From assembly GCA_016929595.1 (NCBI GenBank), contig JAFGIN010000177.1, forward strand, positions 1 through 48,861: a stretch of DNA of 48,861 nt, read 5' to 3'. The position numbers were made by a program, and so were the translations under genes. Source of the DNA: Chitinispirillaceae bacterium (GTDB lineage: Bacteria > Fibrobacterota > Chitinivibrionia > Chitinivibrionales > Chitinispirillaceae). This document shows, in pieces, positions 17,421-22,012 of the stretch. The notes below the pieces were generated by a model. The model worked only from the letters and a program-made list of their open reading frames with translations, did not search any database and was not told the DNA's origin. Numbering within the stretch: the first letter of the stretch is position 1; the number at the start of each line of letters is the position of its first letter.

Positions 17421-17753
17421 ATGCTGAGAATGTTTCTCAATGGTAAAATACGGGATATCCGGATAACGGGAACAAATCTTGAATATGAAGGCAGCATCAC
17501 ATTAGATGAGGAATATCTTGAAAGAGCCGGCATTCTTCACAACGAAGAAGTACATGTATTGAATGTTGACACCGGAACACGACTGATAACCTACGCAATC
17601 AAAGGTGAAAGAAACTCTGGAATTGTTGAGCTCAATGGACCTGCAGCACGACTTGGCATGAAGGGTGACAGAGTTATGGTACTTACCTATGCGATGCTTT
17701 CTGATGAAGAAATTTCCAGTCACGAGCCAAAAATTGTCTGTGTTAATCCGTAA
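17421..17753 (+). CDS. panD: Aspartate 1-decarboxylase
   Basis: Makes beta-alanine from aspartate for pantothenate and CoA. Translation from the ATG at 17421 (AGGA 6 bases upstream) gives 110 aa, close to the family norm. The self-cleavage site is G24-S25 in EYEGSITLDE, where serine becomes the pyruvoyl cofactor. Also seen are TYAIKGERNSGIVELNG and AARLGMKGDRV. Other pantothenate genes are not in the window. It is followed 30 bp later by the LytR_C gene, probably one transcript. Confidence 0.95.
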   Translation: MLRMFLNGKIRDIRITGTNLEYEGSITLDEEYLERAGILHNEEVHVLNVDTGTRLITYAIKGERNSGIVELNGPAARLGMKGDRVMVLTYAMLSDEEISSHEPKIVCVNP

Positions 17754-17783: not shown

Positions 17784-18197
17784 ATGAAAAATTTCTTTAT
17801 TCTTATACTTCTGGCATCTTTTATCGGGGCACTCATCATCATTGGATCTATGATCGCAGTTGAGAAGCCGGAAGTTTTTATGAAAGAAACAAAAACATAT
17901 CAGAATGTCCCACACCTTGGAAGTATAGAACTTCTGAATGGATGCGGTGTTGATGGAGCCGCACTCGAAGTTGCAAACTATCTACGTTCAAAAGGTTTTG
18001 ATGTAAAATATATCGGAAATGCTCCTGAATGGAACTATTCCAGTACTCTTATCGTCTCAAGAATAAAAGACACCGCCATGGCCTCCAGGGTTGCGTCTGT
18101 TCTTAAGACACAAAAAATGACTCTTATTATTAATAACAACACACTTTACGATGTAACCGTTTTCATAGGTTCAGATTACAAAGAAAGAATTCAGTGA
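17784..18197 (+). CDS. LytR_C domain membrane-anchored protein
   Basis: Protein of 137 aa. One N-terminal membrane segment (about residues 3-26) is followed by a LytR_C-type domain (GSIELLNGCGVDGAALEVANYLRSKGFDVKYIGNA). This domain is often found C-terminal to LytR-CpsA-Psr proteins and also alone, anchored in the membrane. Its last bases overlap the GTG start of rsfS by 4 bp. A LytR_C protein beside rsfS is a recurrent arrangement in several phyla. Confidence 0.85.
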   Translation: MKNFFILILLASFIGALIIIGSMIAVEKPEVFMKETKTYQNVPHLGSIELLNGCGVDGAALEVANYLRSKGFDVKYIGNAPEWNYSSTLIVSRIKDTAMASRVASVLKTQKMTLIINNNTLYDVTVFIGSDYKERIQ

Positions 18198-18547
18198 AAA
18201 AAGTTTCAAAAATCGCAATTAACTCAGAAGAGCTTGTTAAACTCATTATTGACGCAGCAGAAGAAAAACTTGCTGAAAACATAACCGTGGTTCAGATGAA
18301 TAGCGCAAACGGAATCAGTGATTTCTTTGTTATATGTCAGGGAGATACCACCGTTCACAACCAGGCAATCTGTTCCGGTGTCGTGGATTCTCTTACGGAA
18401 AAAGGGTGTAAACCATGGCATGTTGAAGGAACCGATGAGGGACGCTGGATTCTTGCAGACTTTTCAGATGTTGTATTACACGTCATGCTACCCGAGCTTC
18501 GTGACTATTACCGACTTGAAGAACTTGGGACCGTTGTCAACATGTAA
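18194..18547 (+). CDS. rsfS: Ribosome silencing factor
   Basis: RsfS (117 aa) binds ribosomal protein L14 and blocks subunit joining under starvation. Motifs: NGISDFFVICQGDTTVHNQAI and GTDEGRWILADFSDVVLHVMLPELRDYYRLEELG, the conserved end. It starts at GTG 18194, overlapping the LytR_C stop codon (GTGA). The next gene, the ArgRS-like protein, begins 19 bp downstream. Confidence 0.95.
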   Translation: MKKVSKIAINSEELVKLIIDAAEEKLAENITVVQMNSANGISDFFVICQGDTTVHNQAICSGVVDSLTEKGCKPWHVEGTDEGRWILADFSDVVLHVMLPELRDYYRLEELGTVVNM

Positions 18548-18566
18548 AAAACAGCAACGGCACATT

Positions 18567-19295
18567 ATGCCTCCATCGATTCACACCTACATTAAAACCA
18601 GACTCAATGAAGCGTTTTCCAGAGCGTTCTTTTATCTGGGTAACCCACCCCTTGTCCCTCTAACATTCTCATCGATCACACCAGATCCATCAGTTGACAT
18701 CGCAACCCCGTTTCCACTTAAAATCTCAAATGCGTTGCATATACCCGTTTTAGAAGTCAGTGATCTTCTGTTGCAAAATTTCTCCTTTGATAAGAATTAC
18801 ATTTTGAATACTGCAGAGAATCTCTACTTCAGAGGCTACTTAAATTTCAGATTAGCCCCCTCTTTGGTTTTTCATTCAGTGTATGAAACGTGCTTGTGTG
18901 ACAATCCTGCAGGTGCGAACTGCAAAGAACCGTCCTCAGATATCATAAATAAGATCAGTACGCTTCTGAAATATACTAGTCCTGAAAACTTCCCCCGATA
19001 TGATCAGTTAAAAGTTCTAACAAATAAATTAACAGGCTTTGAATTAAGAATCGCTCGACTTATCGCTGTATCGGGTGAAGATGCAATACACTCCCGGGGT
19101 GCCCATTCATTTTTTATAAAGCATCTTCTCAGTGAGGCATGCTTATTTTATAAAGCGTGTCCTGTACCCGTAAGAGATACCGGGCATTCTCTTCTCAGGA
19201 TTATCATTTTTAAGGCATTAATTAACAGGATCAGGATATTATCAGTGATGCAGGACCTGGATGAATTTTATACAGGAAGTACTGCAGAAAGATAG
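18567..19295 (+). CDS. ArgRS-like protein with N-terminal and DALR domains but no catalytic core
   Basis: Protein of 242 aa from the ATG at 18567. Residues 1-110 resemble the additional N-terminal domain of arginyl-tRNA synthetase, which reads the tRNA D-loop; FRGYLNFRLAPSLVF matches the GFINFFL end of that domain. Residues 150-238 resemble the DALR anticodon-binding domain (FELRIARLIA, then LLSEACLFYKACPV, then LSVMQDLDEFY). The Rossmann catalytic core with HIGH and KMSKS is absent and there is no room for it. The frame is intact, so a tRNA-binding protein is likelier than a relic. The eukaryotic analogue in architecture is DALRD3. It is in the rsfS operon. Its function is inferred only as tRNA binding. 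Confidence 0.72.
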   Translation: MPPSIHTYIKTRLNEAFSRAFFYLGNPPLVPLTFSSITPDPSVDIATPFPLKISNALHIPVLEVSDLLLQNFSFDKNYILNTAENLYFRGYLNFRLAPSLVFHSVYETCLCDNPAGANCKEPSSDIINKISTLLKYTSPENFPRYDQLKVLTNKLTGFELRIARLIAVSGEDAIHSRGAHSFFIKHLLSEACLFYKACPVPVRDTGHSLLRIIIFKALINRIRILSVMQDLDEFYTGSTAER

Positions 19296-19301
19296 GAAAA
19301 A

Positions 19302-19328
19302 AAGAACCGGTAAAAATTACCGGTTCTT
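19302..19328 (-). terminator. Rho-independent terminator of the tex-like gene
   Basis: AAGAACCGGTAA (19302-19313) pairs perfectly with TTACCGGTTCTT (19317-19328), giving a 12-bp stem with a 3-base loop. On the minus strand it is followed by a T-tract. The TAA stop of the minus-strand gene lies inside the stem. It lies between two convergent genes and may stop both. Confidence 0.8.
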
Positions 19329-21500
19329 AAAATGTTCAGCAAGATTATCGAGCTGTCCCTTTGACGGACGAACTTTTGGAGCCATATTTCCGAGATTTTT
19401 CATCGACAATGAAATGCGTCGTTTTTTAACGTCAACCTTTAAAATACGGACATCAACTTTATCGTTTATATGTACCACCTGCTCCGGTGTTTCAACATAC
19501 TCATCAGCCAGTTGCGAAATATGAATCAATCCATCGCACACAGCATTAATATTGATGAACACGCCGAACTGAGTAATATTTGTTACTCTTCCCGAAACAA
19601 TCGCACCCTCTCTGAGCTCGTTAAGTTTCTGTTTCCTTTTTATTTTCGGAGAAGCAATGCCTGCATATCTTGATGCAACCGATAGAAACGGTATGACTTT
19701 TTTCTGAATATAAATTTTCCTGATCGGATCATCAGTTTCGAATGAGTTGAGTACCTCGGGATCAGATGCAATCGTATCGATTGACACATTAAACTGTTCA
19801 CTCATCTCAGAGAACCATGGATAATGATCGGGATGCACAAGTGATCTATCCAGGATCTCTTCCGCATTTGGAATAATAATGAACCCGGAGATATTCCGAA
19901 AGATCAGCTCACTCACACCTTCGACTTTGAGAAGGTCGTTTTTATTTGCTATCTCCCCTCTTCCATCAGCACTGCGAATGGCACTTATAACCTCTGACTT
20001 TACAATAGGTATTTTACTGAGTGGAGATTCCAGGATCTCTTTTATCTGAATACCATTCTGCAGTTCGGCCATCGTCATTATTCGATTAACAATTTCAGTC
20101 AGCCGCTCGGGATGTATGAGATTCTGCAGAGGATGAACCGAGTAGTATTTCGTACCAAGCCGTGACAACAATGTTAACGGTTTTACAACATTGAGTGCAA
20201 CCCCGTACATTTCCTGCATCTCATCGTCAAGTAGCGTTGAAAACTCTTTTTTCATCCATTCTGAATCAACTGGATTTTCAATCCCCTTTTCCGGAGCAAT
20301 AATTTCTATTTCCGGCGCAGGTTCGATTCCTGTGATTGCAGCTTTGAGCACAGCCTCTGCAACAGGTGCCTTATCGTTATCAATAATGATAATTTTTAGA
20401 GGTTTATGTCTGCTTAAAAACTGTTTCAACCGTTCACTTGCAAAAACTTTACCTTCAGGAGGTTTTTTCTCGGATGTAGCTCCAAGGAAATTACCCTGCC
20501 CGCTTATAGCGATTAACTGAAGATTTTTTTCGTTTTTAGCATCAGCAATCAGAAGGGCACCGCGCTGTAATTCATCAATGTAGATTTTTTCAAGATCAAC
20601 AAGCAATTTCTTAATTGCCCATTCCTCTGATTCCTGTAGCAATCTAGCTTTAATGTCACGTTCTATCGCGGGTTGCAGCAACCTTACCCAGGTATCGTCA
20701 ATCGTTTCACATAAAAGATCGAAACCGACAGAATCGGGGTTAGTTATTACATGATGACGCATAAGTTCAGTAATCCTGAACAATTGCACACCAGCTTTCA
20801 AGCGAACAATCTTTTGTTCTTCATCGTGAAGAAATTTCAGTAATTGTTCTTTCGAAAGTTCAGTAAATTCAACATTTTTCCCCACATAAGCTGCATATGA
20901 CGAATCTTTTTTATTTTTTGGCGTTATATCAAAAAAACCATCCTCATATGCAAATTCACGCACCATTGCCCGTATAGTATCATCGTAAGAAATCCTTTCG
21001 GCGAGTATCTCTTTTACCCCCTGTATCACCTCTTCAACAGAGGTTAGCGATGGATCTTTTCCGATGTATTCTTCGGCAAGGATCTCTACTGGTGTTGTTT
21101 CTTCTTTCTGTTGCATGATCTTATCTGCGAGAGGATCGAGCCCCTTTTTAGATGCGACCTGACCTTTACTCCTTGGATTGGGACGCAAAGGCAGCAACAT
21201 ATCGTCAAGTTCAAACGAACTTGATGTCAGATTAACATGCTTTTCAACGTTCGGAGAAACCGTTCCCGCTTTTTTTAATGCATTAAGTATTCTTTTCTTC
21301 TTTGAAGAAAGCTCTTCCATCATTTTTAAAAAATCGAAAATTTCCCATAGAGTGGATATGGATAATTCAATGGCCGTTTCGGGATGATACTCAACTAAAT
21401 AATACGGAGTATCACCCTTACTAAAAGCATTGCACAACTGCTCAGATAGAGCTACTGGAATGTTCCATTTTTCTGATATTTGCTTTGAAAATTCTACCAT
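19317..21500 (-). CDS. Tex-like S1 RNA-binding protein
   Basis: Protein of 727 aa with the Tex/YhgF layout. It has a helical N-terminal half, a central YqgF-like region (ALLIADAKNEKNLQLIAISG ... KIIIIDNDKAP), helix-hairpin-helix segments (GEIANKNDLLKVEGVSELIFRNISGFI) and a C-terminal S1 domain at about 630-700 (EGAIVSGRVTNITQFGVFIN). It is clearly diverged from E. coli Tex: the usual glycine-rich YqgF motif and the SIGRYQHD-type segment are replaced (YYSVHPLQNL). Tex proteins bind nucleic acid and affect transcription. The stop codon is inside the terminator stem. Confidence 0.8.
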   Translation of the reverse strand: MVEFSKQISEKWNIPVALSEQLCNAFSKGDTPYYLVEYHPETAIELSISTLWEIFDFLKMMEELSSKKKRILNALKKAGTVSPNVEKHVNLTSSSFELDDMLLPLRPNPRSKGQVASKKGLDPLADKIMQQKEETTPVEILAEEYIGKDPSLTSVEEVIQGVKEILAERISYDDTIRAMVREFAYEDGFFDITPKNKKDSSYAAYVGKNVEFTELSKEQLLKFLHDEEQKIVRLKAGVQLFRITELMRHHVITNPDSVGFDLLCETIDDTWVRLLQPAIERDIKARLLQESEEWAIKKLLVDLEKIYIDELQRGALLIADAKNEKNLQLIAISGQGNFLGATSEKKPPEGKVFASERLKQFLSRHKPLKIIIIDNDKAPVAEAVLKAAITGIEPAPEIEIIAPEKGIENPVDSEWMKKEFSTLLDDEMQEMYGVALNVVKPLTLLSRLGTKYYSVHPLQNLIHPERLTEIVNRIMTMAELQNGIQIKEILESPLSKIPIVKSEVISAIRSADGRGEIANKNDLLKVEGVSELIFRNISGFIIIPNAEEILDRSLVHPDHYPWFSEMSEQFNVSIDTIASDPEVLNSFETDDPIRKIYIQKKVIPFLSVASRYAGIASPKIKRKQKLNELREGAIVSGRVTNITQFGVFININAVCDGLIHISQLADEYVETPEQVVHINDKVDVRILKVDVKKRRISLSMKNLGNMAPKVRPSKGQLDNLAEHFKNR

Positions 21501-21694: not shown

Positions 21695-22012
21695 TTATTT
21701 TTTTGTTTTTTTTACTGTTTTCTTTGCAGCTTTCTTAACAACTTTTTTCACTGCAGCCTTCTTAACAACTTTTTTCACTGCAGCCTTCTTAACAACTTTT
21801 TTCACTGCAGCCTTCTTAACAACTTTTTTCACTGCTTTAGCTGCAGCCTTTTTGACAGGAGCCTTTTTTACAACTTTTTTTGTAGCCGCTTTCTTAACAA
21901 CTTTTTTTGCCTTTGGAGCGCTTTTTTTTACGGCAGACTTAGTCTTAGCCACTGCTTTTTTTGCGGCTTTTTTTACCACTTTTTTTGTTTTTGCAGGTGC
22001 TTTTTTTAACAC
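21695..22012 (-). CDS. Lysine/alanine-rich histone H1-like protein
   Basis: Protein of 105 aa made almost entirely of Lys, Ala, Val and Thr, with the unit KKVVKKAAV repeated four times and degenerate units around it. Such proteins resemble the C-terminal tail of histone H1 and bind DNA without sequence preference. The start is GTG at 22012 with a perfect AAGGAGG seven bases upstream, which decides the start. The low-complexity frame is on the minus strand; the plus-strand frame over the same DNA is an artefact. A strong terminator follows. Confidence 0.85.
   Translation of the reverse strand: MLKKAPAKTKKVVKKAAKKAVAKTKSAVKKSAPKAKKVVKKAATKKVVKKAPVKKAAAKAVKKVVKKAAVKKVVKKAAVKKVVKKAAVKKVVKKAAKKTVKKTKK
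21726..21833. repeat. 27-bp tandem repeat, four copies, inside the H1-like gene
   Basis: Four consecutive 27-bp units start at 21726, 21753, 21780 and 21807. The last three are identical and the first differs at one base. Each begins GCAGC and ends TTTTTTCACT. Being a multiple of 3, copy-number changes keep the frame. Confidence 0.9.

Follow-up and report, generated by a model that had tools for sequence, protein, structure and literature searches.

A descendant of arginyl-tRNA synthetase without its catalytic core, encoded behind rsfS in one family of Fibrobacterota, as a putative tRNA-Arg binder

To our knowledge, most of the non-catalytic derivatives of tRNA synthetases described so far are eukaryotic. 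Arc1p and Trbp111, which are free-standing cofactors of aminoacyl-tRNA synthetases, are OB-fold modules that bind tRNA in trans without charging it. In vertebrates, DALRD3 binds tRNA-Arg and brings in METTL2; its N-terminal part, as described, is shared only by DALRD3 homologues (PMC7237682). A20 is the main identity base for arginine, and in the arginyl-tRNA synthetase (ArgRS) of E. coli it is contacted by residues F82 and N84 through stacking and hydrogen bonding (PMC8975779; PMC9976931). A literature search, covering open-licence papers, returned no report of a bacterial ArgRS without its core.

We analyzed a window of 48,861 nucleotides from a Chitinispirillaceae bacterium, in which a gene directly behind rsfS had been read, from the letters alone, as the N-terminal and DALR domains of ArgRS joined by a short linker, with the HIGH/KMSKS region missing. 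The frame was confirmed as intact and open, and encodes 242 aa. The locus runs in the order BFN nuclease, panD, LytR_C protein, rsfS and the core-less ArgRS gene, with tex convergent, as follows:

17421-17753, plus strand: panD (PF02261, E 6.4e-40)
17784-18197, plus strand: LytR_C-domain protein, a conserved upstream neighbour that precedes rsfS-argS elsewhere in the phylum (PF13399, E 1.1e-13)
18194-18547, plus strand: rsfS, directly upstream (PF02410, E 2.3e-27)
18567-19295, plus strand: core-less ArgRS descendant, N-domain, linker and DALR (from orthologues, HMMs and models)
18567-18899, plus strand: ArgRS N-terminal (D-loop binding) domain, residues 1-111 (orthologue above the PF03485 cut-off, profile match to ArgRS, model)
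18834-18848, plus strand: A20-pocket motif G-Y-L-N-F, residues 90-94, equivalent to E. coli F82 and N84 (best-conserved block; PMC8975779)
18939-19271, plus strand: DALR anticodon-binding helical domain, about residues 125-235 (E to 7e-7 against the ArgRS of sister families f3 and f5; profile, HMM, models)
19302-19328, no strand assigned: terminator-like hairpin between the gene and convergent tex (consensus scan only)
19317-21500, minus strand: tex, the convergent neighbour that bounds the slot (PF22706 and S1 domains)

The rsfS stop and the start at 18567 are separated by 19 nt, and by 1 nt in two other genomes (G010 and G016). The frame stays open further upstream across rsfS (18318-18566, plus strand), with a GTG at 18318; judged from the orthologues and the ArgRS N-terminus, 18567 is likely the true start. 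Beyond tex, positions 21695-22012 (minus strand) encode a histone-H1-like, Lys/Ala-rich repeat protein of 105 aa (KKAVKKVVKKAA...), and similar frames follow tex in G003 and G010 too.

Searched alone, the window protein matched nothing in Pfam, NCBIfam or the PDB sequences, nor in the named genomes that were scanned with it, where the LytR_C neighbour as query gave 28 loci; therefore, relatives were needed to confirm the ArgRS reading. In a first search of 61 relatives, other genera proved to encode proteins of about 230 aa at the corresponding position. The orthologue from G008 exceeded the Pfam cut-off for Arg_tRNA_synt_N (PF03485; 26.6 bits vs 21.5) and that from G010 lay at the cut-off for DALR_1 (22.2-23.0 bits vs 22.3). 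The argS model TIGR00456 was matched by three of the seven short proteins, with E up to 1e-6, and a profile built from all seven matched the P. horikoshii ArgRS 2zue (E 2e-10) in two colinear stretches. On HMMs of rsfS-linked ArgRS, the short proteins match positions 3-123 and, further on, 458-547 (of 557); positions 124-457 have no counterpart and therefore the class I core with HIGH/KMSKS, about 335 residues, is absent. The window protein itself matched the f3/f5 ArgRS HMM over its N-part only (E 1e-4). Thus the D-loop binding N-domain is present in the short family by orthologues and profile, and the DALR domain, shortened at both ends relative to ArgRS in the window protein, draws on sequence evidence from the orthologues and on a structural match for the window protein.

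We compared two AlphaFold models of the window protein, one from an alignment with ArgRS rows included (pTM 0.73) and a control from the short proteins only (pTM 0.72). For both models, the sixteen best PDB entries were all ArgRS. Against the chain of the E. coli ArgRS-tRNA complex, Z was 15.6 and 16.8 with about 207 residues aligned (208 for Z 16.8), spanning chain residues 1 to 571; the next rows after ArgRS dropped to Z 6.5, with 7.2 for a DALR-bearing GlyRS in the second model. Residues 1-111 aligned with the K. pneumoniae ArgRS N-domain 3gdz (Z 10.6). Foldseek also gave ArgRS in its top six places, with an E-value not under 0.001, so the second aligner decided the fold match, and the model made without ArgRS rows agreed. 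Taken together, orthologues, profile, HMMs and models uphold the domain reading made from the letters, and it is almost certain that the gene encodes an ArgRS N-domain and a DALR domain without the core and derives from an rsfS-linked argS.

A full-length ArgRS (558-584 aa) occupies the slot between rsfS and tex in the sister families f3 and f5; the genomes G025, G027, G031 and G032 have no other ArgRS. We compared the short proteins with HMMs of four ArgRS groups, which are deeply separate. All seven matched the f3/f5 ArgRS colinearly (E to 5e-28); E was no better than 0.017 against the resident ArgRS of the family that carries the short gene (f1) and no better than 0.0017 against the other two types. 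A duplication of the resident argS is ruled out as the source, since the short proteins match the f3/f5 HMM instead, and pairwise BLAST of the window protein against the resident ArgRS returned nothing useful because the short proteins stem from a different ArgRS lineage. The LytR_C-rsfS-argS order was also observed in families f9, f11, f14 and at least one f8 genome. Since much of the phylum shares this arrangement, the position of the short gene is that of the ancestral argS, from which it inherited its linkage to rsfS.

In the ancestor of f1, charging was almost certainly done by another, deeply separate ArgRS, and a single internal segment, the catalytic core, was deleted from the rsfS-linked argS copy. 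Homology, synteny and the models show what is left: the D-loop-reading N-domain, a short linker and the DALR anticodon-stem domain. The steps can be read as an intact enzyme at the same locus in sister families, a reduction to two tRNA-reading domains, and total loss.

Several observations concern the full-length enzymes. At loci L183-L186, L188, L189, L135, L103, L195 and L128, the rsfS-argS order is kept, usually with LytR_C upstream. Despite this conserved order, the slot ArgRS belongs to different deep lineages across the phylum, which looks like displacement in place. The sole ArgRS of f3/f5 (L171:6760-8433 of G025, L103, L128, L195) reads V-V-V-N at the HIGH position (SANPTGPMVVVNGRAAAIGD, compared with C. 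jejuni 3fnr) and keeps KMSKR intact; the same type is the parent of the core-less protein. A sole genomic ArgRS lacking HIGH merits separate study. The ArgRS of f8 and f11-f13 carry A-F-H-H at this position (GKELAFHHLRG) and those of f14 V-Y-H-H (loci L181, L182, L183, L185-L190).

Seven genomes from six genera carry the short form (G000, G003, G004, G006, G008, G010 and G016, with the gene extending to the contig end in G006). All belong to the window's own family f1, a Chitinispirillaceae-like family of Fibrobacterota; neither an rsfS census in all 40 genomes from the order nor a profile search against 168 genomes from the phylum found the short form outside f1. In the other f1 genomes that keep rsfS and tex adjacent (G005, G007, G009, G013, G014, G015, G017, G021), the two genes nearly touch (gap of -10 to 192 nt), and the short gene is therefore wholly gone. 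In a tree of four neighbouring genes, several forks of which are weakly supported, carriers stand on both sides of the first f1 split, with G004 on one side and the other six opposite. These results place the short form in the f1 ancestor, with about four later losses, and such outright loss indicates that the gene is dispensable.

These independent complete losses speak for the main rival explanation, in which replacement of the enzyme left the gene a relic with little or no function, translated or drifting with weak constraint and vanishing lineage by lineage. So does its very fast divergence, with 17-34% identity between genera vs 50-60% for rsfS and tex. Saturation of dS between genera leaves the congeners G010 and G016 as the one informative pair, and the short gene's own dS is unreliable there. 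In this pair, dN of the short gene was 0.53 vs 0.08-0.13 in neighbouring genes, roughly four times faster, but well under the dS of those neighbours (1.6 or more), so the gene is constrained but fast. Moreover, the frame is open in all seven carrier lineages, spanning the depth of the family and diverged to about 20% identity, where drift would bring stops: in a neutral simulation of the short genes, almost no open frame was left at 0.5 changes per site.

The best-conserved block of five columns among the seven short proteins, G-[FY]-[IL]-[NC]-F at residues 90-94, bears on the same question. Its aromatic and Asn correspond to F82 and N84 of E. coli ArgRS, and this A20 pocket keeps the aromatic in 7/7 and the Asn in 6/7 proteins, a conservation far above the mean. 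The replacement of the key Asn by Cys in G006 and the missing FY pair of the DALR domain in G004 fit a relic; the conservation of the block and the continued prediction of both folds argue against one. Overall, we regard a relic as rather unlikely.

The tRNAs of the window's genome were also compared, and A20 was present in the five tRNA-Arg genes found and in none of 12 sampled other tRNAs. Since the A20-reading pocket is the most conserved part, binding of tRNA-Arg by the short protein is likely; it is somewhat probable that this binding is the function that was retained, and folding may also help to hold the motif. An A20 motif of its own is retained in the resident ArgRS wherever readable, which leaves no obvious gap for the short protein to fill. 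The core-less protein would most likely be a non-charging tRNA-Arg binder working in trans. It would still bind tRNA-Arg by way of A20 and the anticodon arm but not charge it, and could serve as an accessory factor that holds this tRNA and, for instance, presents or withholds it. More tentatively, and with appreciable doubt, we suggest a bacterial sensor or adaptor derived from ArgRS that acts in trans and reads both A20 and the anticodon arm of tRNA-Arg; it would have arisen by deletion of the core in place once ArgRS had been displaced, and one family would have retained it since its ancestor. As such it would be a natural minimal tRNA-Arg-binding module, in which A20 dependence is directly testable, and it illustrates the aftermath of a synthetase displacement.

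A more specific role, as an adaptor for an RNA-modifying enzyme on tRNA-Arg, would resemble that of DALRD3 with METTL2 (PMC7237682), sharing the logic of a non-catalytic DALR protein. However, the conserved neighbourhood of the short gene holds no linked methyltransferase, and DALRD3 was described from vertebrates with another N-terminal part (PMC7237682). The comparison is fair as an analogy of logic only, and a DALRD3-like role seems improbable.

Translation control together with RsfS had also been considered in the sequence-only reading. Such a partnership, in ribosome silencing or starvation control, could be favoured by the adjacency and tight spacing of the two genes. Surveyed across related genomes, the linkage proved widely conserved, but it was inherited with the ancestral argS and gives no evidence of partnership: the LytR_C-rsfS-argS order carries a true, full-length ArgRS across much of the phylum, so that no functional tie is needed, and rsfS remains where the short gene was lost. 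We therefore consider this role very improbable. A further reading takes the protein as one part of a split ArgRS whose catalytic part is encoded elsewhere, with the missing core as the sole point in favour. We rejected it, since the only PF00750 match in the genome (assembly 95% complete) is a complete ArgRS of 560 aa (C118) with its own N-terminal and DALR domains.

The preferred reading, a tRNA-Arg binder derived from ArgRS, can be set against the known systems. With the ArgRS of the rsfS-linked f3/f5 type (TIGR00456; PF03485, PF00750 and PF05746), the short protein has in common the N-domain, the DALR domain, their order, the locus, the A20 motif and the fold, and it differs in the absence of the Rossmann catalytic core (HIGH/KMSKS) and of the C-terminal tail GVSAPERM. 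DALRD3 had been put forward as a protein of similar build, and both carry a DALR domain without an aminoacylation core and descend from an ArgRS gene, as is proposed for DALRD3; yet, going by its description (PMC7237682), DALRD3 has an N-terminal region of its own, METTL2 as partner and m3C as the modification, whereas the short protein has the ArgRS N-domain, so that the builds differ. Arc1p and Trbp111 would share with the short protein the binding of tRNA in trans without charging, but they are OB-fold modules, in contrast to the ArgRS N-domain and DALR helical bundle modelled here.
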